DNA of 64,000 nt from a virus: positions 29,251 to 93,250 of the IMG/VR virus record IMGVR_UViG_3300022821_000013, one strand, 5' to 3'. A model generated the notes under the pieces. That model made no database searches and was not told the DNA's origin. It saw only the letters and a list, made by a program, of their open reading frames with translations. Of this stretch, positions 46,677 through 63,610 are shown one piece after another (within the stretch, counting starts at the first letter, position 1; each line of letters starts with the position of its first letter). A program made the translations under genes and the position numbers.

Positions 46677-47167
46677 TATCTAAGAACCCTCTGTGTCATT
46701 GGAAGAGAAGTATCTTTAATTTTATAACCTCTACATTTTATAGATACATTATAACCATGTTCAGTTCCATTGTAACTTGTAGTTGGATTCTTACCTGCAA
46801 AATATTCATTTTGGAATATTTCAGATAATTCAAAAAAATCATTATCCCATTCTAATATATCACCTGTAAATGGCTGATAATTAAAATTTTCTAATTCATC
46901 ATATAAAAATGAAAATGAAATTCCTTGATTATAGTTAAATCCTGTATTTGCACTTTCAAACATAGGATCAGTTCTATCCACTAAACAATTAATTAAAAAT
47001 GGTTCATAATACATTTTGTTCGTTGTTTCACCATAAGTATTATTTGATGTCATATTGGTTGGATCTAATTGAAATACCTTAACTTCGGTATTAATAACTT
47101 TATTTATTAATTCCATATTTAACTTTCTAAACAAGTCCATATCTCTAGATCTATCAAATAATGACAT
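46676..47167 (-). CDS. 14: Neck protein gp14-like
   Basis: This 163-residue protein begins MSLFDRSRDMDLFRKLNMEL, then VFQLDPTNMTSNNTYGETTNKMYYEP, as in gp14-like neck proteins. Its middle ISFSFLYDELENFNYQPFTG precedes a conserved IFQNEYFAG. With gp13 it closes the filled head and forms the tail attachment site. It is shorter than T4 gp14 (256 residues) but the same as homologues in T4-like phages of marine bacteria, as far as I recall. Confidence 0.8.
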   Translation of the reverse strand: MSLFDRSRDMDLFRKLNMELINKVINTEVKVFQLDPTNMTSNNTYGETTNKMYYEPFLINCLVDRTDPMFESANTGFNYNQGISFSFLYDELENFNYQPFTGDILEWDNDFFELSEIFQNEYFAGKNPTTSYNGTEHGYNVSIKCRGYKIKDTSLPMTQRVLR

Positions 47168-47173
47168 TATAAA

Positions 47174-48319
47174 TTACCTTATGTAAATTTTCAATGGTAT
47201 ATTCAAGAATTGATTTCTAATCGCTTCTGATTCAGCAGTCATTTTTTCTAATTGATTACGTTTAGATAATTTCTCTAATGTATCCATTAACTCTTGTCTT
47301 AAACTTTCTTTCTCTTGTTGAGCTTGTATTAGTAAATCATTATAATTTAATGATACAGTTGAATTTGGTATTGGTATAGTAGAGAATTTACCTCTTATCA
47401 ACCCAAGCCCTTCTTTAGCTAATGCTATAGCATAATTCTTAATCCATTGTCTACCTACAGAATTTATATCTGAGTATTGTATATTATCATAAGGAACATT
47501 ACTATAATCACTAACTATACTATTAGACCCACTAGGTTCAGAAACATCTAATCTTTCATCACGTAATATATATTGATATGTTAATTTATGTGTGTGTTCT
47601 GGAACTGGGAATATACGTAGGTTATTATTTATAAGTTCAAAGCTATACGATGATTTTCTAAATTGATCATTAAATTCAATCGCTTGCATTCTAACTAAAT
47701 CTTCAAACATACTATAAGGTGTTAATGTATAAGTTACACCCTGTGCATATCCTGATAAACCCATTGCATTTAAGAAATCTCTATTACCTAAGTTAGGATC
47801 AAAATATCTTAAATTAGCTGGTATAGCATAATGAAATACACGTTTAATCTCTATACTACCAGATCCACCGTTCTGCTCATACAAGTCCTGTAAATCGTAT
47901 AATTGCACACCTTCTTCTAACTGTACGAATCCCTCTCTCCAATCTAAATTACCACCTGCACCAACTTCAGCTGAATAGTTCTTTGCTATTCCAATAACTC
48001 TATCTAAACTGTGTTTTATTACCTTTCCACTTAGAGATGCATCTCTATCTGAACCTTGAACACTTATAAAGTTATCAATTGTATTGTATTCATTTACAAT
48101 AGCACTATATTCAGTTATAGATTCCTCTATAAATGAATACATTGATCCAGATGTCAATTCGACATCCATAATAGGATAACCAAGTCTATTAGCTATTAAT
48201 GTAGCTATCTTAGGTGCGTCATTCTGAAATTGAATATCATTATCATAATATCCAAAAGGAGTTGACCCTGATACTGGACCTGGACTTCCATCCCAAATAG
48301 GTATTGTTATTGTTGCCAT
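47174..48319 (-). CDS. 13: Neck protein gp13-like
   Basis: This 381-residue protein includes RLGYPIMDVELTSGSMYSFI, FVQLEEGVQLYDLQDLY, ELINNNLRIFPVPE, QYSDINSVGRQWIKNYAIAL and LGLIRGKFSTIPIPNSTVSL, the conserved blocks of T4-like gp13 head completion proteins. It forms the ring below the portal. It is followed by gp14 after 6 bases. The ATG is preceded by TTTATATTTATTAATATATGG, so its leader carries the AT motif only 7 bases upstream and has no clear Shine-Dalgarno. Confidence 0.88.
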   Translation of the reverse strand: MATITIPIWDGSPGPVSGSTPFGYYDNDIQFQNDAPKIATLIANRLGYPIMDVELTSGSMYSFIEESITEYSAIVNEYNTIDNFISVQGSDRDASLSGKVIKHSLDRVIGIAKNYSAEVGAGGNLDWREGFVQLEEGVQLYDLQDLYEQNGGSGSIEIKRVFHYAIPANLRYFDPNLGNRDFLNAMGLSGYAQGVTYTLTPYSMFEDLVRMQAIEFNDQFRKSSYSFELINNNLRIFPVPEHTHKLTYQYILRDERLDVSEPSGSNSIVSDYSNVPYDNIQYSDINSVGRQWIKNYAIALAKEGLGLIRGKFSTIPIPNSTVSLNYNDLLIQAQQEKESLRQELMDTLEKLSKRNQLEKMTAESEAIRNQFLNIPLKIYIR

Positions 48320-48343
48320 ATATTAATAAATATAAATGATTTG

Positions 48344-49069
48344 TTATTTTGTGTTCTGATATTTATCAAATCTAATCATAAATTCATCTAAGATTGGATG
48401 TCTATGGTTTGATTGCATTTCAAATGTAGTAAAACCATTTATACCTTGACCACATTCAATTAAAAATTCTAAACCACTATCACGTCTATTCTTTAAATCA
48501 ATTTGTCTATAATCACCACAGAATATCATTTTTGATCCTTTACCAAGTCTTCCAATTATCATCATCACTTGGTCTATAGTTATATTCTGACACTCATCAA
48601 TTATAAGACATGCATTTGAAAACGTAACACCTCGTAGATATGCTAATGGTGATATTACTATATCATCATTATCCATCATATTTTTTATAGTTTGTTTTTT
48701 TTGTGTGGAGCTACCATAACATTTTCTAAAGTTATCATATACTGGTTGTAACCAAGGTTCCATTTTTTCATTTATATTACCTGGTAGGAAACCAATCTCT
48801 TCCTTTGATACTGTTGGTCTAGTTATATGTATTCTATCTATCTCTTTATCAAAAAATGCTGATAACGCATAGTTAACAGCACTCAATGTTTTACCTGATC
48901 CAGGCTTACCGAATAACACGGTAATATCATTTTCGATTATAAGTCTTTTGACTTCTTTTTGTTCTTCATTTAACTGGATGTCAAATGTTGGTTTCGTTTT
49001 TGGTCTTGCTTTTGATTTATTATCAATCTTAATATCTAAAATTTCACCGTTAGTCTTCTTCTTAGCCAT
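48344..49069 (-). CDS. phoH: PhoH-like ATPase
   Basis: This 241-residue protein is a PhoH-type P-loop ATPase: QLNEEQKEVKRLIIEN, Walker A GKPGSGKT (54-61), RIHITRPTVSKEEIGFLPG, CLIIDECQNI (Walker B) and MIFCGDYRQIDL. Phage PhoH is common in marine phages; bacterial relatives act in RNA metabolism. The phosphate-starvation link is historical and unproven for phages. AGAGGT lies 5 bases before the ATG. It follows the accessory nuclease/methyltransferase gene and precedes gp13. Confidence 0.93.
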   Translation of the reverse strand: MAKKKTNGEILDIKIDNKSKARPKTKPTFDIQLNEEQKEVKRLIIENDITVLFGKPGSGKTLSAVNYALSAFFDKEIDRIHITRPTVSKEEIGFLPGNINEKMEPWLQPVYDNFRKCYGSSTQKKQTIKNMMDNDDIVISPLAYLRGVTFSNACLIIDECQNITIDQVMMIIGRLGKGSKMIFCGDYRQIDLKNRRDSGLEFLIECGQGINGFTTFEMQSNHRHPILDEFMIRFDKYQNTK

Positions 49070-49116
49070 AGAAACCTCTTGGTATATTTAAAACTCGTTA
49101 CTATTAATAAATAGAT

Positions 49117-50781
49117 TTAATATTTCAAAATATATTCGCTTTTATGTTTAGATTTGTTATTAAAATGAGAAGTATTATTCTGTAAAAAATACTCATCACC
49201 ATCAGGAAAATACTGCCTAAGATTAGAACTGAAATTTATCAATTTGTTATTAAATTTGTTAATTCCATTTACGATGAATTGGTCTACCCATTCTTCCAAA
49301 GAAGAGTAATAAATATGATTAGAGTAAATTTCTTTATCATAGTATGGTATAGAAGTAAACGTTAAATTAAAGTTGTAAGTATCACTATAATCTTCCAATT
49401 TAGAATTTAATATAGTTACATTATCAAAATTAGAAGATAATAATTTTAATTCATTATAAGTTTCTATATTAGGTTCTAACCCAATATATGTTCCATTTGG
49501 ATATATAGATTTGAATCCTAATAATCTACCACCAAACCCAGCACAAGGGTCTAATACAACTGGAGCTGTATTATCACCTATAAAATGTTTATATATTCTA
49601 GCAGCTACAACTGGTTTGAAAAATGATATTGTATGTCTAAGTGATGACATACCAACATTTATATTTCTAATTGAGAAATCATATACTTCGTCATTACTAC
49701 CAAGACCAAGTCTATTTTTAATAATTTCAGTTACATGTTCATCAGAATTGTAAATTTCATATGGGGATTTTGAGTTGTTATAATGTGATTTCCAATATGA
49801 TTTAAATATTGATTTTAAATATTCATTGCCTACAACTGATGTGTTGTTATTAAATGTTTTATCTTCTAATTTGAAGTTGATAGTTTTATCATATATAGAC
49901 TTTGTTATTGATTGTATATTATAATCACCAAATGGATATGGGTAATCGTCTATAAATTCCCTTATGAATTTTCTATATAACCACATATTTTTATTTATGT
50001 AATCGGCTTTTAATTCTATATAATCTTTACGTATTATAATATCTTTATATGATACATTAATATGGTTATTAGTATTATAATTTAAAATATCATCAATACT
50101 ATTTATATTATAAACGTCCTTCTCCATAATCCTAATTAAATTCGGTATATTTCTATTTTTACGATTATCATTTATAACTTCAGATAATTGTCTATGGTTT
50201 AAATCCTTTAATGTTGTTGGATGCCAATAAACACCATCAACCTCAATATACATATCATGATCATATAAGTAAAAATCTATTATACCAAATTCATGTTGTG
50301 CTTGTGGCTCAAATCTACATCCTGATTGTTCAAGTATAGATTTTATATGTAGTTCTATTTTTGTATCTTTATAGTCACTGGTCATTCCACGTTTTATAGC
50401 TGCTTCACGCATTTTAGATTTACTTTCTTCTGAAAATATATAACCTGTTTTAACTGGTTGATGGTGATCCACATAATTTCGTCTAAATGGTTCGGATACA
50501 AGTAATGTCACCTCTTCTCCACAACCACATTCACAGAATTTTGGTTCGTCATCAAATATATATTTTCTAACATAATCTAATTTATCCATATTATGTTTTT
50601 TCTTAACATGATGTGATAACGTAACTTCATTATGAAATTCGTTATTGCATATTTTACATGTTACTCCATTAGTTTCTTTTATTTTGATACGACGTAAGTA
50701 TTTTTGTCTGAATTCTGGATGTGTCTTTACATACTCATCAATTGTTAATCCACCATGACCATCTCTTAAATGTGTAGCCAT
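49117..50781 (-). CDS. Zinc finger-nuclease-DNA methyltransferase fusion (3' part of an interrupted gene)
   Basis: This 554-residue product contains a C2H2-like finger (C42, C45, H57, H63), a CxCxC knot (C83-C87), and a NUMOD3-like segment (FSEESKSKMREAAIKRG, 116-132). A DUF559/Vsr-like nuclease follows (E143, D169, then YIEVDGVYWHP with E180 and D182), and then a SAM-dependent methyltransferase with motif I LDPCAGFGGR (410-419), IGLEPN and motif IV SIPYY (477-481). The last motif suggests an amino-methyltransferase of adenine N6 or cytosine N4. The first residues complete a finger that begins in the upstream frame at 50800-50985; both frames are in phase and separated only by TAA. AGAGGA before ATG 50781 allows restart. 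It may be a mobile or exclusion element. Confidence 0.85.
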   Translation of the reverse strand: MATHLRDGHGGLTIDEYVKTHPEFRQKYLRRIKIKETNGVTCKICNNEFHNEVTLSHHVKKKHNMDKLDYVRKYIFDDEPKFCECGCGEEVTLLVSEPFRRNYVDHHQPVKTGYIFSEESKSKMREAAIKRGMTSDYKDTKIELHIKSILEQSGCRFEPQAQHEFGIIDFYLYDHDMYIEVDGVYWHPTTLKDLNHRQLSEVINDNRKNRNIPNLIRIMEKDVYNINSIDDILNYNTNNHINVSYKDIIIRKDYIELKADYINKNMWLYRKFIREFIDDYPYPFGDYNIQSITKSIYDKTINFKLEDKTFNNNTSVVGNEYLKSIFKSYWKSHYNNSKSPYEIYNSDEHVTEIIKNRLGLGSNDEVYDFSIRNINVGMSSLRHTISFFKPVVAARIYKHFIGDNTAPVVLDPCAGFGGRLLGFKSIYPNGTYIGLEPNIETYNELKLLSSNFDNVTILNSKLEDYSDTYNFNLTFTSIPYYDKEIYSNHIYYSSLEEWVDQFIVNGINKFNNKLINFSSNLRQYFPDGDEYFLQNNTSHFNNKSKHKSEYILKY

Positions 50782-50799
50782 TCCTCTGGTTGAATATGT

Positions 50800-50985
50800 T
50801 TATTTGCATATTCCACACTCCACAACATTATTTTTTAACTCTCTATTTTGGAACTTTAATTTATTTGGTCTAAATTCACCATATAAATTAACATATTCAT
50901 CTGACTTTATTTTATGTGCTTTGAATATATGAGCAGCCATTCCTTTATTGTCAACTTCGTTTTTGCATATGTTGCATATTATCAT
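50800..50985 (-). CDS. N-terminal zinc-finger part of the interrupted nuclease-methyltransferase gene
   Basis: This 61-residue product has one complete C2H2-like finger, C4-x2-C7-x11-H19-x4-H24, then DEYVNLYGEF, and the first half of a second finger (C57-G-I-C60-K). It ends there at TAA. The next codons in the same frame complete the finger with the same spacing (C60 to H: 11 residues, then x4-H). An ochre mutation of a Lys, Glu or Gln codon explains this. The gene is first after the promoter at 51019-51050. Confidence 0.75.
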   Translation of the reverse strand: MIICNICKNEVDNKGMAAHIFKAHKIKSDEYVNLYGEFRPNKLKFQNRELKNNVVECGICK

Positions 50986-51018
50986 AATAATTATTCATGT
51001 TTGTTAATTAATAATATA

Positions 51019-51050
51019 CAAACTTACGAAAAAGAAATGATATAACCTAA
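51019..51050 (-). promoter_or_regulatory. Bacteroidota-type promoter for the zinc finger-nuclease-methyltransferase gene
   Basis: Minus strand TTAG (51047-51050), 20-base spacer, TAAGTTTG (51019-51026). The -7 box and much of the spacer are identical to the copy at 11367; the -33 box has one changed base. It is the only such promoter in the head/tail gene region. Confidence 0.8.
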
Positions 51051-51101
51051 TTTTATTACAACGCATATTAATCTTTGTATATCATGTTAAAAATAAAAAA
51101 A

Positions 51102-51123
51102 CGATTGTCATTTCTAACAATCG
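51102..51123 (-). terminator. Strong terminator after the major capsid gene
   Basis: A 7-bp stem CGATTGT/ACAATCG with an 8-base loop, followed by TTTTTTTATTTTT on the minus strand. Located 32 bases after the capsid stop and before the accessory gene's promoter. Confidence 0.93.
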
Positions 51124-51154
51124 CTTTATTTTAATCAACTTACAATTTATAAAA

Positions 51155-52825
51155 TTATAAACCATAAATAGTTTCAAGTCCGTCAATTTTAATTCTACCA
51201 TAGAACTCAGGTCTATAGATTTTTTTAGCATAGCGAGTCATTAAGGCTTTAGATGGCACATAATTCACAGGATCCCATATAATTGGCGTAGAGATTAACG
51301 GAATGTAAGGAGCATACACCGCACCAGTGTGCAAGAATGAATTACCTTTATAACCCATTAAAATCTCATTGTTAGTATAGTAAGGAATCACATAAACATC
51401 AAACTCACCTCTAAAGTTACCAACTTTCTTAGTACCAGCTGAGAAGTTTTTAGTATAGTCTTTACTAGCGTCAGAACTGAATCCTGGCATAGATTGGAAT
51501 ATAGTTGCAATTTTAGGAGATGTAACTAAGAAGTTAGCACTACCCAATTGAGTTTTTTGATAGATTTGGTTTGATACACCATTAACCGTGATCATTAACT
51601 CTTGGAACCATTGTGTTCTTGTATATGCAGCAGTTTCACCTTGAACAGTAGAGAAATCTGTCATTTCAGTACCATTGAATGTTCTACCCAATTTAGCACT
51701 CCAAGCAGCTGTATTAGTAGCACCATCTCTTAACATTTGTAATATTTCTAAATCCTGCTCTCTCGAAATATAATCGCCCATTACAGTTGTTAATTCTGCC
51801 TCTGCATCAATTGAATGATAAGCATTAACGTCTTGTTGGAATTCAGGAGTCCATGTTGTTTTTAACTTTCTAGTCTTAGCCACGATCTCTTCAGATCTGA
51901 ATTCCATGTTTAATTCTGGAATATCTAAAGGTTCTTCTTGTGTTTTCGTATATTCAAAATCACCTCTCACTTCTGAGCTTGGTTGTTTGTGATATGTAAT
52001 CACTAAGTCAGTTGACAATGCATCTGCTGAACCAGAAACCACAAATGTAATTTGTGTTTTAGCACCATTGATTGATGTGAATTGTGGGTAATATGAAGAT
52101 ACACCAGTACCAGCTACTTTGAATGCAGATACACCAGCTATATCAGGAGTTGCTAATGAAGCAGCTGCTACAGTGATTGTATAGATTGAATTAGCTAAAG
52201 TTCCAAATGTATTACCTGTTGCCGTAACAGATTGTGACCATTCTGTATCGTAATTGTATGTTGCTGCTGATGCCATAGCACCAGAAACGAATGTTGATGC
52301 ACCAATAGTTGTTCCAACTGATATTGCTGATGAAGTTACGTCATTGATTGTATAACCAAATTTACCGTCACCATATAAACCACCTCTTGCTTCACCTTCT
52401 TCTTTAGTAACACCCCAAACGGAATCTTCTTGTGAGTCTTTACCAGAGTTATTTTCGAAACCTGGTTGAGCAGTACCATATTTAAACTCTAGATAGAATA
52501 CTAGTCCAGAAGGCATATTCATTGGTTGAACAGATACAAATTCCTTTGCTACTGTATTACCGAATACTCTTCTTACTAATGGTAATGCGATACCATTCCA
52601 TTCTTCTGAGTTAGCAGCAGTACCTAATCTTGATGATTCATGTACTAATCTTTTTGCTTGGTTTTCAAGCATTAATGCCATATTCCTTTTTTCGTAATCA
52701 GAAGATAAATCTTCTAATAGGTGGGTAGGTTCCCACTTTCTAATTAAATCTGCTGACTGTCTGATTAAGTTAGCTTCTGTGTTAGAAGTCTCAGTCAATA
52801 GATGTTGTAAGCCATTATTAGCCAC
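51155..52825 (-). CDS. 23: Major capsid protein gp23
   Basis: This 556-residue protein has T4-like gp23 landmarks: QSADLIRKWEPTHLLEDLSS near the start (the region cleaved by gp21 lies nearby), NGIALPLVRRVFGNTVAKEF, VQPMNMPSGLVFYLEFKYG, EITKTRKLKTTW-like AKTRKLKTTWTPE, and near the end PYIPLISTPIIWDPV and MTRYAKKIYRPEFYGRI. It forms the hexameric shell. The start codon is GTG with GAGGA 6 bases upstream. A strong terminator follows. Confidence 0.97.
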   Translation of the reverse strand: MANNGLQHLLTETSNTEANLIRQSADLIRKWEPTHLLEDLSSDYEKRNMALMLENQAKRLVHESSRLGTAANSEEWNGIALPLVRRVFGNTVAKEFVSVQPMNMPSGLVFYLEFKYGTAQPGFENNSGKDSQEDSVWGVTKEEGEARGGLYGDGKFGYTINDVTSSAISVGTTIGASTFVSGAMASAATYNYDTEWSQSVTATGNTFGTLANSIYTITVAAASLATPDIAGVSAFKVAGTGVSSYYPQFTSINGAKTQITFVVSGSADALSTDLVITYHKQPSSEVRGDFEYTKTQEEPLDIPELNMEFRSEEIVAKTRKLKTTWTPEFQQDVNAYHSIDAEAELTTVMGDYISREQDLEILQMLRDGATNTAAWSAKLGRTFNGTEMTDFSTVQGETAAYTRTQWFQELMITVNGVSNQIYQKTQLGSANFLVTSPKIATIFQSMPGFSSDASKDYTKNFSAGTKKVGNFRGEFDVYVIPYYTNNEILMGYKGNSFLHTGAVYAPYIPLISTPIIWDPVNYVPSKALMTRYAKKIYRPEFYGRIKIDGLETIYGL

Positions 52826-52852
52826 TTTTTGTCCTCAATTTATTTTTGTTGT

Positions 52853-53977
52853 TTAATCGCCTAAACTGTAATTTAGTATTGATTTGAATTTAGCAAATTG
52901 GTCACCTTTACCTTCTGTAATGTTTTTCTTTACAGTTTGATTACCAATGTGTTTAGCACTTTCTTTAATTTGTATTTTACTCTTAGGAGCTACATTATTA
53001 ATGTCAAATGCTTCTGTGAATGATTCGAAGTATATTTTAATATCGTTTTCTGATTTAGCAGAATCGAACTTTTCAATTATTCTCTGTCTTGTCTGTGCGT
53101 TAATAGGATACTTATCGAAGATAGTATTCAGATATTGTAATTTAGTTAAGTCTCTCTTCTGTTCAGTTAATGTTTTATTGTAAATACCAATAGCTTGTTT
53201 TAACTGTTCGTTCTCATTACTTAACGTTTTATTTTTGTTTTCTAAAGTGATAACCTTACCTTGTAACTGATCAAATGCATATTTAGATACACTATTAGTT
53301 TCTGATAAATTATTATTTACTTCTTCATCTTCTACTATTTCTAAAGAATCTTCTTCTTCACTAACAGTATCTTCTTCATTCATTTTCTTTTGTTCTGCGT
53401 CTGGAGAACTTTTCTTAACCGTACCCATTTCTGAGTTTGGTTCGTTTTGTTTTGGTGCATCCATATCTTGTGTAGGTGATGCATTTTCTTCTACTTCTTC
53501 TTGTTCTTGGTTAATACCAGGTTCGATTTCGTCAGCTGGATCTAATCCACGTTCTAAATCAGGATCCATTTCTGGTTCTAGTTTTATTCCTAACAATTCT
53601 TTCAAAGCATCGATTATATCTTGCTTATCAATTCCCATTTCTGGTTCTACCTCTGGTTCCATTGTAACTGATTGATCAGTTGCATCAGGTTCCAATGTTG
53701 GTACCATATCTTCTTCTACATTGGTTTCATCCAATTTTTCTGAATCTGGATCTTCATCCGAAACGTAAAGTTCACTCACCTCCTTTTCGTATGCTTCTTC
53801 GTCTTCCTCTTCGGAATCCATTTCAGATAATTTTTCTGAAACCACAGCGTTGTTTCTAGGAACAAACTTTTCAGTTAGTGCTCTCTGAACATGTTGCGTG
53901 AATAACTCCTTAGAGTCTTCAGCCATATTCATAGCCTCTTCCAACATTACGTGTGTATTTGATGTTTCTTTTGACAT
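52853..53977 (-). CDS. 22: Prohead scaffold (core) protein gp22-like
   Basis: This 374-residue protein is extremely acidic, with DSEEEDEEAYEKEVSELYVS and many Glu/Asp/Pro repeats. It has a coiled coil near residues 230-290 (VITLENKNKTLSNENEQLKQ) and a C-terminal helical end, the usual design of T4 scaffold. Scaffold is digested by gp21 during maturation. It lies immediately before the capsid gene as in T4 (21-22-23). GAGG lies 7 bases before the ATG. Confidence 0.85.
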   Translation of the reverse strand: MSKETSNTHVMLEEAMNMAEDSKELFTQHVQRALTEKFVPRNNAVVSEKLSEMDSEEEDEEAYEKEVSELYVSDEDPDSEKLDETNVEEDMVPTLEPDATDQSVTMEPEVEPEMGIDKQDIIDALKELLGIKLEPEMDPDLERGLDPADEIEPGINQEQEEVEENASPTQDMDAPKQNEPNSEMGTVKKSSPDAEQKKMNEEDTVSEEEDSLEIVEDEEVNNNLSETNSVSKYAFDQLQGKVITLENKNKTLSNENEQLKQAIGIYNKTLTEQKRDLTKLQYLNTIFDKYPINAQTRQRIIEKFDSAKSENDIKIYFESFTEAFDINNVAPKSKIQIKESAKHIGNQTVKKNITEGKGDQFAKFKSILNYSLGD

Positions 53978-54048
53978 CTAAAAACCTCTTATATTTCTAT
54001 GATTATTGTCAATCATAATATTATTATTAAATAACTATGTATGTTTTA

Positions 54049-54070
54049 AATGGTTATTACTAGAACCATT
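54049..54070 (-). terminator. Hairpin upstream of the scaffold gene
   Basis: A 7-bp stem AATGGTT/AACCATT with an 8-base loop in the 146-base gap between the 133-residue gene and the scaffold gene; followed by TAAAACATAC on the minus strand. A second small hairpin (TATGATT/AATCATA, 53998-54017) lies closer to the scaffold start. Termination or message processing are both possible. Confidence 0.55.
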
Positions 54071-54123
54071 ATAATTGATGTATTATACACCTTATAAATA
54101 AATATAAATAAAAAAACTCAAAA

Positions 54124-54525
54124 TTATTCGTCGTTACCAACTTCATAGTACCTATCTATAATGATACCAATGGAATCATAACAATTAGATAGTCTTTCTT
54201 TTAACGGTCGCAACTCTTGTGCTGTTTTTGTCATTAACTTATATGTATCTTTTAATGACTTCATATCTCTATTAACACTAACTTTATCCATCCAATCTTG
54301 TGTTTCTTGAAGAGTTAGTATCTCCATATTTTCTATCATATTACCTAAACTCTCAATAACTTCATATAATCTATCATCACCATACATAAGTGTTGAATGA
54401 TTACCATATTCTCGTATTTGATTTAATAACATAGGAACATCATTTTTATCTAACGTTCTCTCTGACATACCAGTTAATGATTCATTTATACGATTACTTC
54501 TATTTATAATGTCTTTAAAATCCAT
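54124..54525 (-). CDS. Hypothetical protein in the prohead gene block
   Basis: This 133-residue protein is mainly helical in appearance (RINESLTGMSERTL, SLGNMIENMEILTLQETQDW, SLKDTYKLMTKTAQELRPLK). No motif was recognised. It lies between the protease and scaffold genes, a place where T4 encodes small core proteins (67, 68), so a core component is possible by position only. ACATTTCC-type spacing separates it from the previous gene by 12 bases. Confidence 0.6.
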   Translation of the reverse strand: MDFKDIINRSNRINESLTGMSERTLDKNDVPMLLNQIREYGNHSTLMYGDDRLYEVIESLGNMIENMEILTLQETQDWMDKVSVNRDMKSLKDTYKLMTKTAQELRPLKERLSNCYDSIGIIIDRYYEVGNDE

Positions 54526-54537
54526 TACATTTCCTAT

Positions 54538-54957
54538 TTACTTTATTTTGCCAAAATTAACTTTTACTATATTATCATTAATTGGATTTTTAATATAGAC
54601 CATATATTTAGAACTATCACCTAACATTATTTCATTAAGATTAATACGATTACCATTGTATTCTCCCTCTTGTAACGTATTGTTCATAGTACCAATATAT
54701 ATATCCATTAATATACTATCTATAATACCTTGTATATTCTGTATATCTCTATCAGAATCCTTAGTTGGTTTTAATTTTGAATTTGTCTTATCAGAAAATA
54801 ATTCTAGTTCTTTCTCTGAAAGAGAATCTGATATATCTATTATTGTTTGTTCTACATCTTTAGTTTCACCACGCTTATACGCTAATGCCTGTTTTAGTGT
54901 ATCACGTTGTTTATCTGCTTTGGATGTCATATACCACATCTCTGGTTGTATTGACAA
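54538..54957 (-). CDS. Hypothetical protein in the prohead gene block
   Basis: This 139-residue protein starts inside the end of the protease gene (31-base overlap). It includes an acidic helical part (KDVEQTIIDISDSLSEKELE) and a C-terminal strand-rich part (KYMVYIKNPINDNIVKVNFG). Translation is likely coupled to the protease. Position suggests prohead assembly, but nothing in the sequence proves it. Confidence 0.6.
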   Translation of the reverse strand: MSIQPEMWYMTSKADKQRDTLKQALAYKRGETKDVEQTIIDISDSLSEKELELFSDKTNSKLKPTKDSDRDIQNIQGIIDSILMDIYIGTMNNTLQEGEYNGNRINLNEIMLGDSSKYMVYIKNPINDNIVKVNFGKIK

Positions 54958-55550
54958 AATATACCGTAGAATATATCATCTACATTTCTTTTTGTATTCT
55001 CTACGATAATCTCGGATGCTTCTGATATTGTGTTCTCTCTAACTGGATTCATAAAACTACCATGATTAGATGGATTAGTTACAAAATCCCAACCTATCAA
55101 CTCATAATCATCACATATCTCTGACGCTTCGTTGTTTATTTGTTTTGTTGAACCAACACCTCTACTTGATATTCCAAACTTATAACCACGTTTGATTATA
55201 TTAGCTACGATTCTACCGGCTGGATTATCATCTAATATTTCTAAACGACCCATCACATTATTACCTTCCCACCATATACGTGTTATTACATGCGATGCAT
55301 TCTTACCTTCAACTACTGTTGACTCTGGATGATCTAACTCACCATAAGCACGTTTCTCATTGACAAATTCTTTTATGTATTCTTCTATAATACGTTCAAA
55401 TATTTTTTTGGGATATACACGTCCATTCTTATTGACTTTATCAACTGTAGTTAGTATTCCCTCAACGAACATACGTTTAAGTCCGTTCGTAGATTCATAC
55501 ATAACATTTACAGGTTCAAATATATTATATTCTAATATTGTGTTTTTCAC
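54927..55550 (-). CDS. 21: Prohead protease gp21
   Basis: This 207-residue serine protease has the T4 gp21 signature: VDKVNKNGRVYPKKIFERI, YGELDHPES with catalytic His (H74), and KFGISSRGVGS with the nucleophilic Ser (128-129), followed by DDYELIGWDFVTNPSN. It cleaves scaffold and capsid proteins during head maturation. It overlaps the bS21 gene upstream by 26 bases, coupling these two genes. Confidence 0.95.
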   Translation of the reverse strand: MKNTILEYNIFEPVNVMYESTNGLKRMFVEGILTTVDKVNKNGRVYPKKIFERIIEEYIKEFVNEKRAYGELDHPESTVVEGKNASHVITRIWWEGNNVMGRLEILDDNPAGRIVANIIKRGYKFGISSRGVGSTKQINNEASEICDDYELIGWDFVTNPSNHGSFMNPVRENTISEASEIIVENTKRNVDDIFYGIFCQYNQRCGI

Positions 55551-55740
55551 GTTCCAGTTCCGTTTTCCGTTTTATAAACTTCTGTTTTTGCTTTATACTA
55601 TTCTTCTTTTCAGAAGGGGAAATATGATGTTTAGTTCTATTAACTTCGTCTATGAAGTTATGATTTTTTTGTTTCTTCTTGAAACGTTTAAGCATTGAAT
55701 CAACACTCTCAGTTCCTCTATTGGTAACACCAAAAGACAT
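55525..55740 (-). CDS. rpsU: Ribosomal protein bS21 homologue
   Basis: This 71-residue basic protein has the S21 layout: TESVDSMLKRFKKKQKNHN (cellular S21: 'e.ie.alrRfKRk.ek.g'), then FIDEVNRTKHHISPSEKKN ('l.e.rrr.y.ekPS.krr'), and a lysine-rich end. bS21 joins the 30S subunit near the anti-Shine-Dalgarno end of 16S rRNA. In Flavobacterium, bS21 helps hide that anti-Shine-Dalgarno sequence. A phage copy could replace the host protein on the ribosome and change which messages are preferred. It lies just before and overlaps the prohead protease gene. Confidence 0.88.
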   Translation of the reverse strand: MSFGVTNRGTESVDSMLKRFKKKQKNHNFIDEVNRTKHHISPSEKKNSIKQKQKFIKRKTELEREKHNIRI

Positions 55741-55743
55741 ATA

Positions 55744-56205
55744 TCACCTTTCTGTTTCGTTGTATATTGAATCTATCAAACTAATAACTGTATTAGTTTT
55801 CTCTCTTAATTTAATTAGCTTATCTTTAGATGATTTCAATAGTGATGTATCATCCATACCAGTTTCATGTTTTAACTTTGACGTATGCTTTAATTTCTTC
55901 TCTAATCCACACATCCAAGAATATAGCAATTTTATAGTTTTGTTCATTCTGTCTTTATCAGACTTATATGCATCATCAGACTTGTACTCTTTATACGATG
56001 CTTCCTTTATTTCATTTTCGCATTTACAAGATTTACCTTTGCACTTGCAACTTGATTTATTTCCGAATGCATTTGGTGTTAAGTACCCTGGTGTTGCATC
56101 ACTTGTATTTCCTGCGTCACACCCACCTGCCCCATCACCATCTTCATCTAATTCATCATCAGTATCAGGTTCTATTATTTTTTTGTGTATCTTACTAAAA
56201 TCCAT
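55744..56205 (-). CDS. Cys-rich hypothetical protein of the head gene block
   Basis: This 153-residue protein has an acidic N-terminus (EPDTDDELDEDGDGAGG) and then GNTSDATPGYLTPNAFG, a phrase seen in T4-like phage head-region proteins. A Cys/Lys knot follows, SCKCKGKSCKCEN (about residues 52-64), then a helical C-terminal half. Four cysteines in CxC pairs could bind a metal. It overlaps the previous gene by one base and ends 3 bases before the bS21 start. Function unknown. Confidence 0.65.
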   Translation of the reverse strand: MDFSKIHKKIIEPDTDDELDEDGDGAGGCDAGNTSDATPGYLTPNAFGNKSSCKCKGKSCKCENEIKEASYKEYKSDDAYKSDKDRMNKTIKLLYSWMCGLEKKLKHTSKLKHETGMDDTSLLKSSKDKLIKLREKTNTVISLIDSIYNETER

Positions 56206-56528
56206 TATCTAACTACTCCATTTCTAATAAATACATATTGTTTTGCGGATGCATTATTAACGACTTTAGATATACTAAATTCATATAATTCATTAACAGC
56301 CAATGCAGTTCCAGGTATAGACCCACCATCTGTAAAGTGTATTGTACAAGCTGTATTAGTTAGTATAATTGCCCCTGCACCATAATCTGATCCTGTAAAT
56401 GAACTTGTACTTGTGTTCTGGACTTCTATTACTCTGTTCCATCTACCTGGATGTCCTTGCATAGCAAATGAATCTAAGTTTATAGTAGGATTTAAACTGT
56501 TCTTCTGTTGTGGATTCGGTGTCGCCAT
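56205..56528 (-). CDS. Hypothetical small virion-like protein
   Basis: This 107-residue protein looks beta-rich: GRWNRVIEVQNTSTSSFTG, GAGAIILTNTACTIHFTDGG, LAVNELYEFSISKVV and KQYVFIRNGVVR. The composition (Thr, Ser, Gly, few charges) resembles small capsid decoration or fibre-associated proteins. No family was recognised. It lies between conserved head genes with minimal spacing. Confidence 0.6.
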   Translation of the reverse strand: MATPNPQQKNSLNPTINLDSFAMQGHPGRWNRVIEVQNTSTSSFTGSDYGAGAIILTNTACTIHFTDGGSIPGTALAVNELYEFSISKVVNNASAKQYVFIRNGVVR

Positions 56529-56530
56529 TA

Positions 56531-57358
56531 TTATACCTTTAATACATTAACTAATTCATAAATATATAACATTGTAGCTATATGATTCTTTTGTAATTTT
56601 TCTAAACTTGATAACTCGGTAAGTATATCCAATACTTCATCTAACTTCACGGATAATACGTTTGAGCTTTGAGTTGTCTTTATTTTATTTATCTCTTCTT
56701 GTAATAACGGAATTTTTGATTTTATAAACTCAACCGTCATTTTTGAATTGGATGAATTTGTTATATATTCAACCAATATTGATTTTTGTTCTTCTGATAA
56801 ATGTGAGAAACGCTCATTAAATTTCTCTATATATTTATCTAATATCTTAACTCTCTGATCAAATGGCCTATTTAAAAATGAATCCATTTGAATAGTTTGA
56901 CTTTGTTTTGTCGCTGTTAAGTGATCTAATACAAAATACATATGATTTGTAGAATCTTCTTCTGAATACCCACTTTCCATTATAGTATTTATAGATGCTA
57001 GTAATTTGTAATTAGGAACTTTAGTTTTAAATAAATCCTTAATATCAGACGTATCTTTTAATTCTTTAACTAAATTATATTTTTCTCTATCTAATTTGTT
57101 TTTGTCCAAACCATTAAATCGTTCTATAATATTATCAATTAATATTTGTGCTTTGGTTTCTGATTTTGATGTTGTATTAACTAAAGTTCTATATAAATCA
57201 TATTCCTTAGCTAATTCTGAATTGCCAGAAAAATACTTCTGTAATATAGGTGATACAGTTGATTCTCTTTGATGTAGAATATCATCTGTTATTTTTCTAG
57301 TTATAAATTCAAACATCAAACCAGTGTTTCTATATTTAGAATGCTTATTTTTGCTCAT
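56531..57358 (-). CDS. Conserved head-region protein of T4-like phages
   Basis: This 275-residue, mainly helical protein begins KHSKYRNTGLMFEFITRKIT, then HQRESTVSPILQKYFSGNSELAKEYDLY. That opening ('KYRNTGvlFE.lvrqit.d.l......a..il.kyF....eL.kEl.lY') recurs in T4-like phages of marine bacteria between the portal and protease genes. Function is unknown; a core or assembly factor is likely by position. An AT motif lies 29 bases upstream. Confidence 0.7.
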   Translation of the reverse strand: MSKNKHSKYRNTGLMFEFITRKITDDILHQRESTVSPILQKYFSGNSELAKEYDLYRTLVNTTSKSETKAQILIDNIIERFNGLDKNKLDREKYNLVKELKDTSDIKDLFKTKVPNYKLLASINTIMESGYSEEDSTNHMYFVLDHLTATKQSQTIQMDSFLNRPFDQRVKILDKYIEKFNERFSHLSEEQKSILVEYITNSSNSKMTVEFIKSKIPLLQEEINKIKTTQSSNVLSVKLDEVLDILTELSSLEKLQKNHIATMLYIYELVNVLKV

Positions 57359-57386
57359 TTAACGACTCGTTGGTTTCTTCTTAATT

Positions 57387-57395
57387 ATAAATATA
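57387..57395 (-). promoter_or_regulatory. Late-gene AT motif in the portal/head gap
   Basis: Minus strand TATATTTAT in TTTATTTATATTTATAATT, 29 bases before ATG 57358. Confidence 0.4.
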
Positions 57396-57403
57396 AATAA
57401 AAT

Positions 57404-59056
57404 TTAATTTTCTGTATTGGTTTTGTTTTTGATATACGACGTGTTAGCTAGTTTAGGCTTTTTCATTAACTCTTTATTGCCAAGTGTATCATACGCAAAA
57501 TTGTTATCATGTGATCCATATTTGTCTCCTTCGGGTGGTCTCCCAACTGGACTTGATTGTGCTTCACCACCAGTCATAGCAACACCAGTTGATACAGGAT
57601 CATTACCTTCCATCTCAATTTGTTTATATCTAAACTGTTGTTTCTTATCTTCTATCATTTGATTACGTGATATTTCTATCTCTTCATCATTCATATTAAA
57701 TATATTTTTATATATATATTCTGATGGAATCATGTCCAACTCTCTCATGTGTTTAGATACATTAACTTTTGATTGCATAAGAGTTAACATCTCTTGTTGG
57801 TATATAAGTGATGGATTGTTTAATTTTATATCAAACTCTATCAACTCATTTAATTCAAATCCCTGTGCAAATAGATGTGTATATGCTATTTCTACTAATG
57901 TAGCTTCAATTTGACGTTGTATTCTTTCTATAGTTCTTGCAAATCTAACATCTTGTGCTGCTAAACTTGACCTACCAGAACTTTCATCTTCAAATCCCAA
58001 ATATGATTTTGGAACCATTAGCCCAGCGAATAGTCTATTTTTTAAATAATCTATTTCATCAATCATATTATTATTATCTAAACCATCTAATGTTTCTATA
58101 CCAGAACCATCATCTTTACCACGTCTAGGAATAAAATAATCTTCGTTTAAATTTTGTATGTTATAACGTAAATTATATTCTCCAGTATTTTGATCATAGA
58201 TTGGAGTTTGTTTCATCTCAGCAGTGATACGTTCTATATAAGCATCTACAGCTGATGGTTCTATCCCAGCAACATCTATATTAAATACTCTTTTGTGTGG
58301 AGCACGTGTTATTCTATGAATCATCATTGCATCTTCCATCAATGATATTTGTTTCCAATGTTTTCTAACACCCTCTATTATAGACTTACCATAAGGTAGA
58401 AAGTTAGAATCTGATGTTAATCTAAAATGTGCTAATTCCCACTTCTCATATCTTTCTTTATTGAAATAATCACCGTATTCACCATAATCATCCTTAATCT
58501 TAAAGAATGTTGTTATTCTACCATAATCATCTGCATGCTCAACTCTCTCAACAATATAAGGTGATACTGACATTGCATTAACAACACCATAATCTTGCCT
58601 AACATCTAATAAAACTGGATAATCACCGTACTTACATGTTTCTCTAACCCAATTCCATAGGTTCATCTCTATATTCAACACATCATAAAATAAGTTGTCT
58701 AATATAGCCTTTAAATCTGCATTATCAGTTTTAACTACTAACATATCACCACGTTCATTGACTAGTGTAGCTTCATCAGCATACACCTTTAACGCAGCAG
58801 ATATGATAGAATCTTTATCCATCATCTCGTAATCTTTGAATAAATCCATACGTTCTTGATTGAAATTATATGAATTATTTTCATAATCCACCAAACTTCT
58901 ACGCATAACTAATCTTTTGTATCTATCAGATGTATAGGGTGAACCTGCACTCTGTATTACATTAGGATCAATTATTTTTAATTTATTCTTATCAATTCTC
59001 TGTACTATTACGTTTCCAGAGAATAGTTTATTTAACCTATCTTTTAAACTTGCCAT
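57404..59056 (-). CDS. 20: Portal vertex protein gp20
   Basis: This 550-residue portal has the T4-like opening QSAGSPYTSDRYKRLVMRRS and the conserved MDKDSIISAALKVYADEAT, LFYDVLNIEMNLWNWVRETC, WELAHFRLTSDSNFLPYGKS, RAPHKRVFNIDVAGIEP, DYFIPRRGKDDGSGIETLDG and NRLFAGLMVPKSYLGF. Twelve copies form the DNA gate that nucleates the head and binds terminase. The order 17-20 is as in T4 but without the intervening 18/19. The AT motif TATATTTATATAC lies 6 bases before the ATG. Confidence 0.97.
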   Translation of the reverse strand: MASLKDRLNKLFSGNVIVQRIDKNKLKIIDPNVIQSAGSPYTSDRYKRLVMRRSLVDYENNSYNFNQERMDLFKDYEMMDKDSIISAALKVYADEATLVNERGDMLVVKTDNADLKAILDNLFYDVLNIEMNLWNWVRETCKYGDYPVLLDVRQDYGVVNAMSVSPYIVERVEHADDYGRITTFFKIKDDYGEYGDYFNKERYEKWELAHFRLTSDSNFLPYGKSIIEGVRKHWKQISLMEDAMMIHRITRAPHKRVFNIDVAGIEPSAVDAYIERITAEMKQTPIYDQNTGEYNLRYNIQNLNEDYFIPRRGKDDGSGIETLDGLDNNNMIDEIDYLKNRLFAGLMVPKSYLGFEDESSGRSSLAAQDVRFARTIERIQRQIEATLVEIAYTHLFAQGFELNELIEFDIKLNNPSLIYQQEMLTLMQSKVNVSKHMRELDMIPSEYIYKNIFNMNDEEIEISRNQMIEDKKQQFRYKQIEMEGNDPVSTGVAMTGGEAQSSPVGRPPEGDKYGSHDNNFAYDTLGNKELMKKPKLANTSYIKNKTNTEN

Positions 59057-59081
59057 TGTATATAAATATAATTGAATTTTT

Positions 59082-60674
59082 CTATAATAGTGATCTTAAA
59101 TCAAATGAATCCCCATTACCAACTTTCATTTGCCAAGGATCTTCATTTTTAAATTGATGTTCGTTTTTAACTCGTTTGATGTTTCGTAGCATAGACATCT
59201 TAATATTACTACCTGCACCTCTAACTCTAACTGCAAAATCTCTAGTATATAGTCCTATTGCCATAGCAATAACTAAGTCATCATTATACCCTTTTGCTGC
59301 TTGTGTTTTTCTACCATCCCATATAAACGAATACATTTCATTTATAAGTCTAAGTGAATTTATTTTTGGTCGTGATGTATATACACCATTATGATCCATT
59401 TCTCTAAAATATAATGCTAATTTATCAATTATTAATTCACGTGTTACGTGTGACATAGTAAATCCAGGTGTCATACCATCTTTATTATATCTATAATCGT
59501 ATTTATAAGCATTAGAGCTATCATCAAGAACATTAATAGCTGATTTTGAATAATATATATTGTCATAACCAATATCAATAACATCCTGTATTACAGCCCA
59601 ACCAATACTATTATTCTCAACTACCAACATAGCATTATTATATTCTCTAGCTATAGATACAACTCTATTAGCGAATAACTTAGTATCAACCTGACCTTTG
59701 TATTCAGCCACTTGTTTTAATTCATTAACTTCTAATACTTGTACAGTTGAATAATCCGAACCGTTTCCACGTGCAACATCGACAGCAACTACATAATCAT
59801 GTTTGTTTGATGCCTCTTCCCATATCCAAAAATCATTGTTATAACGAGTTTCGATTGGATCATTACATAATTTTTTGTATTCTTCTAATATCCTATGCTC
59901 TATCAATGAGTTACCTGACGAAGCGAAATCGCAATCATATTCCTGTGCGGCCTGTTTTTCACCTAACTCTATAGTTTGTCTATCTCTGAATGCTTGGTCT
60001 TGATCTGGATGTAAGTACCAAGGTAATTTTATAAAATTAAATCCATTAACACCTGCTTCTGCATTAGCCCACATATTATGAAAGAAATTTGCAGTTCCGT
60101 TTGGAGTTGATAAAAGTATAGTCGAACCACCTCGTGATAGGGTTGCTTGTGCTGATGTCCAAATCTCCGAAATATCATTAATAAACGCAATTTCATCAAT
60201 TATTAATAGACTTAGAGCCTCTGACCTACCTGCATTCGGAGATGAACCAACTGCCTTTATTCTAGATCCATTCTTTAATACTAATGAAGTTTTATTATCT
60301 TCTTTTCTCGGTACCATAGACCTAAGAAATGTAGGTAGATTTTCATACATCAACTTAACTTTTCTAATTAAGTTTATAGCTGTCTTCTCATCAATTGCAA
60401 TTACAAGTATATTCCTATTCTGCTCAAATATCATCATATGAACACATCGCATAGCAGTTAGAGTAGATATTCCCATCTGTCTAGCTTTAAGTATTATGTT
60501 TCTATCATGTTCCATAATAGATAATAATGCTTTCTCTTGAAATTCATACAGTTCAAATGGAACAACACCTTTCATCGGATGTTCTACTTTACAATACTTT
60601 TTAGCAAAATAAACTATATCTTGCTTACACTTTAGTAATTCTGGTTTTAAACTTTCTAATATTTTCTTATTCAT
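59082..60674 (-). CDS. 17: Terminase large subunit gp17
   Basis: This 530-residue motor-nuclease has Walker A KARQMGIST (63-71), Walker B SLLIIDEIAFI (about 156-166), the coupling motif ILLSTPNGT, and the nuclease motifs VVAVDVARGNGSDYST, MLVVENNSIGW and YNDDLVIAMAIG. It translocates and cuts concatemeric DNA during packaging. A small terminase (gp16) is not seen in the window and may lie outside or be unrecognised among small genes. Confidence 0.96.
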   Translation of the reverse strand: MNKKILESLKPELLKCKQDIVYFAKKYCKVEHPMKGVVPFELYEFQEKALLSIMEHDRNIILKARQMGISTLTAMRCVHMMIFEQNRNILVIAIDEKTAINLIRKVKLMYENLPTFLRSMVPRKEDNKTSLVLKNGSRIKAVGSSPNAGRSEALSLLIIDEIAFINDISEIWTSAQATLSRGGSTILLSTPNGTANFFHNMWANAEAGVNGFNFIKLPWYLHPDQDQAFRDRQTIELGEKQAAQEYDCDFASSGNSLIEHRILEEYKKLCNDPIETRYNNDFWIWEEASNKHDYVVAVDVARGNGSDYSTVQVLEVNELKQVAEYKGQVDTKLFANRVVSIAREYNNAMLVVENNSIGWAVIQDVIDIGYDNIYYSKSAINVLDDSSNAYKYDYRYNKDGMTPGFTMSHVTRELIIDKLALYFREMDHNGVYTSRPKINSLRLINEMYSFIWDGRKTQAAKGYNDDLVIAMAIGLYTRDFAVRVRGAGSNIKMSMLRNIKRVKNEHQFKNEDPWQMKVGNGDSFDLRSLL

Positions 60675-60678
60675 AATC

Positions 60679-61074
60679 TTATAACATTATTAATATACCT
60701 AAAATCAACCCAGTTCCTAACCATAGTTCTTTTCTATCATACCATTTAGGTTGTAACTCTTCTATTCTTATCTTCTGTAGATTTATTATATCTTGATTTA
60801 ACTTCTGTGATTTATCATATTCAGTTAATAAAAATTGATGTTCTTTTATAGTTGACTTATATAGTTCTATTTGTGACATCCTATTATGTATAATACTATC
60901 TTTATTATCAGATATATCGGTTAATATTTCTATCTTCTTCTGTAACTCATATATCTTAAATCCATATTTATACAAGTTCTCTCTTGGTAAACAAGTATCA
61001 GATTTCATTATATCAACTTGCGAATATAAACTGTATGTTGATAATATGAATATTAATATTATTATTCTACTCAT
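60679..61074 (-). CDS. Spanin-like protein: signal sequence, coiled coil, C-terminal membrane segment
   Basis: This 131-residue protein begins with a signal-like helix (MSRIIILIFILSTYSLYSQ). A predicted coiled coil follows (KIYELQKKIEILTDISDNKD onward), ending in a hydrophobic segment (LWLGTGLILGILIML). The double-anchored layout recalls u-spanins, but no lipobox Cys is visible near residue 20. It overlaps the upstream spanin-like gene by 8 bases, as Rz/Rz1-type pairs often do. Position after the lysis genes and before terminase supports a role in outer membrane disruption. Confidence 0.55.
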   Translation of the reverse strand: MSRIIILIFILSTYSLYSQVDIMKSDTCLPRENLYKYGFKIYELQKKIEILTDISDNKDSIIHNRMSQIELYKSTIKEHQFLLTEYDKSQKLNQDIINLQKIRIEELQPKWYDRKELWLGTGLILGILIML

Positions 61075-61396
61075 TATCTATATTCCTAAGAATTGCTATT
61101 GATTCGTCATATGTTATTTTTTCTTGTTCTCTTATAGCTGAAAATGTGGCTATTAACTCTTGTTCTCTGGTATCTAACTCAGATAGTTTAATGTCTAATT
61201 CTTTTATGTTTCTATCTGAAACTTCTATATTATGTTTTAGTTCTTCTTTTCTACTTTCTATAAATTTAGATTCTGAACTTTTAGTATCTAACTTATTTTT
61301 ATTATCTTCTAATTTAGATTCTCTATTCTTTTTATCATAAACAAAAAATCCAATTATACCCAAAACAACAATAATTATATAATTTATAATTTCCAT
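61067..61396 (-). CDS. i-spanin-like protein
   Basis: This 109-residue protein has an N-terminal transmembrane segment (IINYIIIVVLGIIGFFVYDK) followed by about 85 residues of charged coiled coil (ESRKEELKHNIEVSDRNIKE). This is the topology of an inner-membrane spanin (Rz) that bridges the periplasm. It overlaps the next membrane gene. No catalytic motif is present. A Rz-like role is inferred from topology and neighbours only. Confidence 0.55.
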   Translation of the reverse strand: MEIINYIIIVVLGIIGFFVYDKKNRESKLEDNKNKLDTKSSESKFIESRKEELKHNIEVSDRNIKELDIKLSELDTREQELIATFSAIREQEKITYDESIAILRNIDNE

Positions 61397-61412
61397 AATA
61401 ACCTTAAATTTA

Positions 61413-61964
61413 TTAAAAAATACCTACCCATGGTATTGGTGGTGATGGTATTGGTCCAGTTGGAGAAGGAACCAAACCATTATAAACACCATTTATAGTC
61501 GTTGTATGCGTTCTTAACGCTAATATCATACTTTGTATGGTAATATTGGTTGTCTTACCACTAAACGCCATTAATGATGCTTTAAGTGCAACTTCCAATG
61601 AATTTATATCACCTGGAAATACAACTACACATGGAGTTGGTATTGGCATAGGTAATATAGTTGGTGGGTGAGGTGGTAATGGTGAAAATTGTGATCCAGC
61701 CCAAAACCCTACAAACCCACTAGCTACCAATTTCATATTTAACTTTGATGTGGCTCTAGCTAATAAAAATGCACTTTCTAAATTAGATTGTAATATAGCT
61801 TTGTTATAAGTTAATAAACTATTTTGTAACATTGTAGTTGCAGATAGCATTCCTATTTCATATGCATCTGCTATTGATTTAGCTGCGTCTCTTTCATTAG
61901 ATGGTCTTTTTTTTGTAAATATAATATCTAATTGAGTTTCTATCAACTTCCAATTTATAGCCAT
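61413..61964 (-). CDS. Hypothetical protein with proline-rich centre
   Basis: This 183-residue protein has a helical first half (RDAAKSIADAYEIGMLSATT) and a Pro-rich stretch (PLPPHPPTILPMPIPTP, about 94-110). A second helix (INSLEVALKASLMAFSGKTT) and a Pro-rich end (PSPTGPIPSPPIPWVGIF) follow. The pattern resembles uncharacterised small virion proteins in other phages, but I cannot name it. AAGGT precedes ATG 61964. It lies between spanin-like and PAS-domain genes. Confidence 0.6.
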   Translation of the reverse strand: MAINWKLIETQLDIIFTKKRPSNERDAAKSIADAYEIGMLSATTMLQNSLLTYNKAILQSNLESAFLLARATSKLNMKLVASGFVGFWAGSQFSPLPPHPPTILPMPIPTPCVVVFPGDINSLEVALKASLMAFSGKTTNITIQSMILALRTHTTTINGVYNGLVPSPTGPIPSPPIPWVGIF

Positions 61965-61970
61965 TAAACC

Positions 61971-62492
61971 TTAATTTTTAAATTCTTTGATTACATATGA
62001 TATTATACCAGCTATAGCAGTTAACCCAAATACTATCATTTGCCAATTAGTTCTAGCCCATTTAAATACATCAATACTATCAGTAACTGTACTTATAGAC
62101 AATATTGGTGGGTTTAAATTTATCAGTTCGGTTACTTGTGCTAAATAACATATAAATTCACCATCTGAACTTCTAACTGGTGATACATTCAATAAAACCC
62201 AAACTATAACTCCAGTCTTAGTTATATAACGTTTCTTCATTCTATAAGATGGAACTTCACCATCATATATACGCTTGGTCATCTCAACATCAGAATCTAC
62301 ATCATCTGGGTGAGTTATTGATTGGAATGTTTTTAATTGTATTTCTGCTAGATTATATTCAATTACATTCAAATATATATCATTTGCATGTAGAATTAAA
62401 CCATCTTTGGATACTAATAATATCCCAACTATAGAGTTGTTCCATATACTATCAAATATATTCTCTTTCATAGATGAATCTATAACAAACAA
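61971..62492 (-). CDS. PAS-domain protein with C-terminal membrane anchor
   Basis: This 173-residue protein is a single PAS fold (about 12-124): SIVGILLVSKDGLILHAND, YNLAEIQL, then SITHPDDVDSDVEM with the typical HPDD, YRMKKRYITKTGVIVWVLLN and FICYLAQVTEL. A C-terminal transmembrane helix follows (about 150-167, WQMIVFGLTAIAGIISYVIK) with a charged end. PAS domains sense small ligands, redox or light and mediate protein contacts. No kinase or output domain follows. The start may be TTG 62492 (GAGGA 6 bases upstream) or ATG 62471 (MKENIFDS). It sits within the lysis gene group, so it could sense membrane state for lysis timing. Confidence 0.85.
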   Translation of the reverse strand: MFVIDSSMKENIFDSIWNNSIVGILLVSKDGLILHANDIYLNVIEYNLAEIQLKTFQSITHPDDVDSDVEMTKRIYDGEVPSYRMKKRYITKTGVIVWVLLNVSPVRSSDGEFICYLAQVTELINLNPPILSISTVTDSIDVFKWARTNWQMIVFGLTAIAGIISYVIKEFKN

Positions 62493-62677: not shown

Positions 62678-62689
62678 TCATATTACCAT

Positions 62690-63573: not shown

Positions 63574-63595
63574 ACACCTTTAAATTTACAATTTT

Positions 63596-63610
63596 ATAAA
63601 TATAAATATA
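63596..63610 (-). promoter_or_regulatory. Late-gene AT motif, double copy
   Basis: Two overlapping TATATTTAT copies on the minus strand (63602-63610 and 63596-63604), 23-29 bases before ATG 63573. Confidence 0.4.

Follow-up and report, generated by a model that had tools for sequence, protein, structure and literature searches.

Behind the major capsid gene in a 64,000-nucleotide stretch of viral DNA (the window, whose source record is a 93-kb virus contig), two minus-strand frames that look like parts of one protein are separated by an ochre codon. The locus raises two questions: whether the stop belongs to the gene, and why a zinc-finger arm, a nuclease and a methyltransferase would be joined in a single chain at this position.

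Reading frame and stop codon

The minus-strand frame 50985-49117 comprises 622 codons with a single interruption, a TAA at codon 62 that falls inside the second zinc finger. It runs through 61 codons, the TAA, six sense codons (T-Y-S-T-R-G), an ATG at 50781 and 553 further codons, and the pieces on either side of the stop share one phase:

50803..50985, minus strand: upstream piece of 61 codons, with zinc finger 1 and the first half of finger 2 (zf-BED, E 5e-4)
50800..50802, minus strand: TAA in frame at codon 62, where the near-identical contig L002 has a sense codon (sequence and comparison)
49117..50781, minus strand: downstream piece of 554 residues, with the rest of finger 2, finger 3, the nuclease and the methyltransferase (sequence)

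A first-pass annotation of this DNA had described two in-phase frames split by TAA and six sense codons, and its coordinates prove exact; the finger that it read across the stop, with the C-x2-C-x11-H-x4-H spacing of the intact finger, is confirmed in the sequence. The joined frame is not a product of chance, since intact relatives with >99%, 42% and 35% identity align with it from one end to the other. Uninterrupted homologues, which the annotation had suggested as a check, are present: one comes from the same phage population, the single-gene intact relatives further include L003 (LR756508.1, 42% identity), L008 (35%) and seven other distinct members, and none of the intact relatives is divided into two genes.

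The contig from the same population, L002 (IMGVR_UViG_3300023296_000416, handle G001), represents the same phage. Its 64,000 bases are collinear with the window, with 24 substitutions and no gaps (99.96% identity), and a sense codon at position 62 leaves one open frame of 622 residues. The stop is absent from this near-identical contig and from all other family members, and when viral contigs were searched with the DNA pattern across the stop, the sister contig alone was found, with its sense codon. L084, a candidate second broken copy, was set aside as poor sequence because the capsid and homing genes that adjoin it are likewise disrupted. A reassigned stop codon was also rejected: TAA terminates normal genes of this phage, the 622-codon gene included. 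Given the sense codon in the sister contig and the single-gene state of all intact relatives, sequence comparison identifies the TAA as an ordinary change, which arose either by very recent mutation or as a base error, and not as a conserved feature of the lineage.

A sequencing or assembly error, with the resident gene intact, is possible at somewhat less than even odds; this is a narrower question, compatible with the main reading proposed below. All 24 differences between the window and L002 lie within 47132-63828 (the last 17 kb), the first 47,131 bp being identical. Nineteen are non-synonymous (the stop counted), 4 synonymous and 1 intergenic, close to the expectation for unselected changes, and there is a one-way bias, with 10 sites at which the window has T and L002 has C and none in the reverse direction. 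Strain variation without selection would give such a pattern, and so would base errors. Against the error reading, both contigs are changed at sites that are conserved elsewhere, and a real strain mixture fits as well. Four of the differences, all non-synonymous, fall within the 622-codon gene, among them the following:

49366..49368, minus strand: residue 540, Asn in the window; Asp in L002 and every other aligned member, including the stand-alone methyltransferase L004 (alignment)

Of the annotation's readings of the stop, a recent mutation (or else a base-call error) fits. Unless the base is an error, the window copy is probably an inactive or shortened allele produced by one very recent base change.

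The annotation had also offered regulated readthrough, or two interacting chains started from AGAGGA and the downstream ATG. Readthrough is contradicted by the absence of the stop from every relative, the near-identical contig included. The two-chain reading is unlikely because GAGG lies 1 base from the internal ATG (the distance is 5-7 bases in most normal genes with a match, and 10-11 in the others) and because the AGAGGA before position 50781 supplies the Arg-Gly codons of finger 2 in the intact relative; on that spacing, it was rejected as an effective ribosome site for an internal start. A functional stop of either kind, programmed readthrough or one message giving two chains, is thus very improbable: both frames are in phase, and the intact L076, L079, L083 and L085 have only one N-terminal finger, which means that a product of 554 residues would still be like an architecture that exists in nature, but no other member has the TAA, the second ATG has GAGG too close in front of it, and the same gene carries the change at residue 540, where the methyltransferase family has an invariant Asp.

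Domain architecture

The 622-residue protein has the following parts:

50914..50976, minus strand: zinc finger 1, C-x2-C-x11-H-x4-H, residues 4-24 (sequence)
50755..50817, minus strand: zinc finger 2, same spacing, residues 57-77, split by the TAA (sequence; intact in L002 and L003)
50593..50658, minus strand: zinc finger 3, C-x2-C-x11/12-H-x4/5-H, residues 110-131 (zf-C2H2_4, E 2.5e-5, in an intact relative)
50389..50535, minus strand: CECGCG zinc-ligand motif and NUMOD3-like helix, residues 151-199 (alignment; NUMOD3 match in L003)
50086..50373, minus strand: EDxHD/Vsr-like homing nuclease domain, residues 205-300 (profile matches and alignment)
49126..49875, minus strand: amino-methyltransferase domain, residues 371-620 (alignment and model)
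49525..49551, minus strand: methyltransferase motif I, DPCAGFGGR, residues 479-487 (alignment)
49342..49356, minus strand: methyltransferase motif IV, TSIPY, residues 544-548; TSPPY in other family branches (alignment)

The nuclease of the window protein matches Pfam Vsr weakly (E 4e-6), and its residues E211, D237, E248, D250, H255, D273 and K276 are invariant in 10 relatives. The best PDB match of the nuclease family profile is 3r3p (I-Bth0305I, E 9e-5), with which Glu, Glu, Asp and Lys align. By these matches the nuclease core is homologous to the EDxHD homing endonuclease I-Bth0305I, type enzyme of this class, and it would be expected to cleave DNA. A Vsr mismatch endonuclease proper was considered and rejected, as the TIGR00632 match scores 24 bits against a cut-off of 97.85.

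In a Pfam search of the window protein the methyltransferase domain was not matched; N6_N4_Mtase (Pfam) and PDB 2zie, a modification methylase, are matched by its relatives only. The AlphaFold2 model is mostly confident over the nuclease and methyltransferase part (residues 209-622), and Foldseek with this model finds methyltransferase folds, with ErmC', KsgA and similar rRNA/tRNA N-methyltransferases among them. In the gp23 group motif IV is SIPY, as against the S/N/D-P-P-Y usual in N6A/N4C DNA amino-methyltransferases. Because of this motif, and of ErmC' and KsgA among the Foldseek matches, RNA methylation is kept in view: RNA, instead of DNA, may be the substrate.

The architecture that the annotation had read from the letters, namely fingers, a Vsr-like nuclease and an amino-methyltransferase, thus stands, the last of these by way of relatives and the model. 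Its NUMOD3-like segment is found by profile in the homologue L003 alone (E 1e-3), the window protein having no match. The homing-type system that it had envisaged gains support as well.

A family of fusions

Nuclease-methyltransferase fusions were collected by scans with the methyltransferase domain, and L003 through a search of annotated phages. The scans gave two sets of nuclease fusions (18 distinct) and one set without a nuclease. Set 1, with 11 distinct members (window/L002, L003, L008, L076, L077, L079, L082, L083, L084, L085 and L086), combines zinc fingers with an EDxHD-type nuclease, has TSIPY as motif IV, and goes with the capsid protein gp23. Set 2, with 7 (L098, L099, L100, L101, L102, L104 and L105), has one or two LAGLIDADG_2 domains, TSPPY as motif IV, and zinc-ribbon tails. 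In the PDB the profile of this second branch matches I-SceI (E 4e-24) and the modification methylase 2zie (E 2e-7), and both acidic LAGLIDADG motifs, LGDGH and FDDG, are invariant. Where their neighbours can be named, nuclease-free members of the family adjoin clamp-loader, recombination or replication genes. A search for relatives of the fusion on plasmids and in cellular genomes found none.

In the methyltransferase tree the gp23-associated fusions form one clade (support 100/99). The LAGLIDADG fusions form one clade in 0 of 200 bootstrap trees, which suggests that the pairing of nuclease and methyltransferase probably arose, by joining or exchange, on more than one occasion. The intact relatives are under purifying selection, as judged from dN/dS values of 0.04-0.22 in their DNA-binding, nuclease and methyltransferase parts (diverged pairs with estimable dS).

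The slot behind the major capsid gene

The most informative fact about the gene, which the first-pass annotation had missed, is its place, a slot for homing genes right behind the major capsid gene:

51155..52825, minus strand: gp23-type major capsid gene (mcp), upstream neighbour and presumed target region (Pfam Gp23, E 2e-69)
51098..51127, minus strand: intrinsic terminator between mcp and the element, with a 13-pair stem and a T-rich tail (sequence)
48344..49069, minus strand: phoH, downstream neighbour; directly after mcp in many relatives, where the slot is empty (sequence search and comparison of loci)

All 18 distinct fusions from the methyltransferase scans lie directly 3' of a major capsid gene and on the same strand, with an additional homing-type gene between mcp and the fusion in L003 and L008. 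This fixed position recurs in two unrelated capsid lineages, the capsid proteins of the two sets being dissimilar (Pfam Gp23 for set 1, the major head protein phrog_2522, E 2e-47, for set 2). In the huge phage LR756508.1 (L003:3968-5680), the tandem of homing-type genes behind the capsid gene consists of a zinc-finger nuclease and the nuclease-methyltransferase fusion.

The contents of the slot were surveyed by scans with capsid proteins. Between the conserved mcp and phoH the fusion is an optional gene, absent from many gp23 relatives; the commonest downstream arrangement in gp23 phages is the empty slot, in which phoH follows mcp after about 100-150 bp. Other gp23 phages have nuclease-only genes there, either a zinc-finger nuclease (L151 and L164) or a GIY-YIG enzyme (L173-L175), and nuclease-only LAGLIDADG genes occupy the slot in L190, L209, L224, L240, L247 and others. 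Among 47 dereplicated capsid loci of the phrog_2522 group, LAGLIDADG genes without a methyltransferase are found in 13/47 and methyltransferase fusions in 9/47, counts that are biased in that the loci were gathered by capsid identity and pooled with known carriers. Protection by methylation is thus not a requirement in this slot, where genes with a nuclease alone persist.

The capsid scans also added four LAGLIDADG-methyltransferase fusions (L197, L198, L199 and L238), of which L197 and L238 represent a different pairing of the two domains, and three genes that combine zinc motifs, an unassigned domain and a methyltransferase (L194, L200 and L205); the L197/L238 pairing and these three genes are counted within the 9/47. 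The middle domain of L194 and L200 has no Pfam or PHROG match. These two genes (L194:1705-4089 and L200:6024-8378) carry CGNR zinc motifs, a methyltransferase of the same family and a middle region that is PD-(D/E)XK-like by eye only; this region is possibly a third type of nuclease.

Carriers are scattered on the gp23 capsid tree, with 6 changes, at least 4 of them forced by well-supported branches. A co-conversion footprint was sought at the 3' end of the capsid gene in the LAGLIDADG group and gave no signal, third codon positions being near saturation.

A proposed self-protecting homing element

The best explanation, to which we give a probability of roughly 0.6, is a free-standing homing element aimed at the capsid region, with a built-in methyltransferase that would protect the carrier's own uninterrupted target. 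The gene would be such an element, lodged in a T4-like phage between mcp and phoH, and its EDxHD nuclease would be guided by the zinc fingers and the NUMOD-like segment to a long site, which we infer to lie in the conserved capsid region or nearby, in the DNA of a co-infecting phage. After cleavage, repair would copy the element into the cut DNA. Homing of this intronless kind has precedents among free-standing endonucleases (PMC6083498, PMC2988022). An intron or intein would interrupt the sequence that it targets, whereas a free-standing gene next to mcp would leave its target whole; the fused methyltransferase would most likely mark the carrier's site, so that only unmarked competitor DNA would be cut. 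The element is accordingly classed as a variant of the free-standing homing endonucleases and not as a restriction-modification system.

A one-gene restriction-modification system of the Type IIG kind would instead cut unmethylated phage DNA at many short sites and exclude superinfecting phages, its position behind mcp serving late expression. The layout is that of Type IIG enzymes, with a nuclease and an amino-methyltransferase on one chain, and PADLOC Type II methyltransferase models match the LAGLIDADG and zinc branches. However, the nuclease domains belong to homing families (I-Bth0305I, I-SceI, PADLOC HEase) and not to restriction types, a terminator stands between mcp and the window gene, and nuclease-only homing genes without a methyltransferase use the same fixed genomic slot. 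This makes the reading unlikely, and with a homing-family nuclease and a separate zinc-finger arm the fusion was not assigned to Type IIG.

It is also rather improbable that the methyltransferase is cargo, shielding phage DNA from host restriction or modifying RNA, while the nuclease merely spreads the gene. Nuclease-free members lie beside replication genes in several phages, which indicates that the domain has uses of its own, and homing genes with cargo have been described (PMC10448857). Yet cargo does not need to be fused in the same chain, and in the mcp slot this domain has been joined repeatedly to different nucleases.

The self-protecting homing reading extends to a broader claim, for which we see about an even chance: that phages carry one-gene selfish elements in which a homing nuclease is combined with an antidote methyltransferase, and that behind the major capsid gene of unrelated phages, related methyltransferase modules were joined to two unrelated nuclease folds at a minimum, and probably to three. 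No description of a homing nuclease-methyltransferase fusion was found in the open-access literature. Free-standing homing enzymes with a conserved, uninterrupted target face the problem of self-cleavage, to which target polymorphism and a companion intron are the known answers; a fused methyltransferase would be a third. If this is true, "self-protecting homing" genes would link homing endonucleases to restriction-modification systems and show a path from a homing gene to a restriction-modification-like system, and co-infecting phages would be contesting the capsid gene. If carriers that are methylated cut capsid genes that are not, this would be a concrete mechanism by which phages compete in natural communities. 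Because one slot, behind the major capsid gene, is used repeatedly, the idea can be tested directly, with one target region and one expected modified site.

Comparison with known systems

The closest structural reference, I-Bth0305I (PDB 3r3p), shares the nuclease core, the aligned acidic and Lys residues and a multi-domain DNA-binding arm; it is intron-encoded, whereas the window gene is free-standing and has a C-terminal methyltransferase. To our knowledge, I-Bth0305I has no methyltransferase. I-SceI resembles the LAGLIDADG nuclease part of set 2, but set 2 is fused to a methyltransferase and a zinc-ribbon tail, occurs in huge phages, and was not seen in an intron.

The free-standing Seg and Mob genes of T4 are likewise optional genes between conserved ones, and segD, which sits between genes 23 and 24, also adjoins the major capsid gene (PMC2988022). 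In contrast to the fusion, segD is a GIY-YIG gene on the opposite strand and is uncharacterised. The same review mentions no methyltransferase for any Seg or Mob gene (PMC2988022). Free-standing homing genes need protection from self-cleavage, which an intron can supply: in the "collaborative homing" of F-CphI from cyanophage S-PM2, a free-standing enzyme must also spare its own genome (PMC6083498), but protection there comes from an intron in the target, whereas in the fusion it would come from methylation. The ShiLan insertion also brings a homing nuclease and a methylase together in one locus, an HNH gene having invaded a phage methylase gene out of frame (PMC11855218). It differs from the fusion, in which both domains are in frame and which has nuclease-only relatives in the same capsid-side slot.

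Other features of the window

Several other genes of the window deserve mention. The ribonucleotide reductase large subunit (19054-23103) has an in-frame intein containing an HNH endonuclease. A 110-residue DNA methyltransferase remnant (11005-11337), identical in L002, has DPPYG and then the C-terminal part within a few residues, as if its middle had been deleted. In the tail gene region, a 1586-residue protein (32123-36883) has many NATGFTIY...DTSxFVWK repeats and an OmpA-like C-terminus. Finally, the C-terminus of a 518-residue secreted-looking protein (14992-16548) resembles a sorting signal for type IX secretion, a hint that the host may belong to the Bacteroidota.
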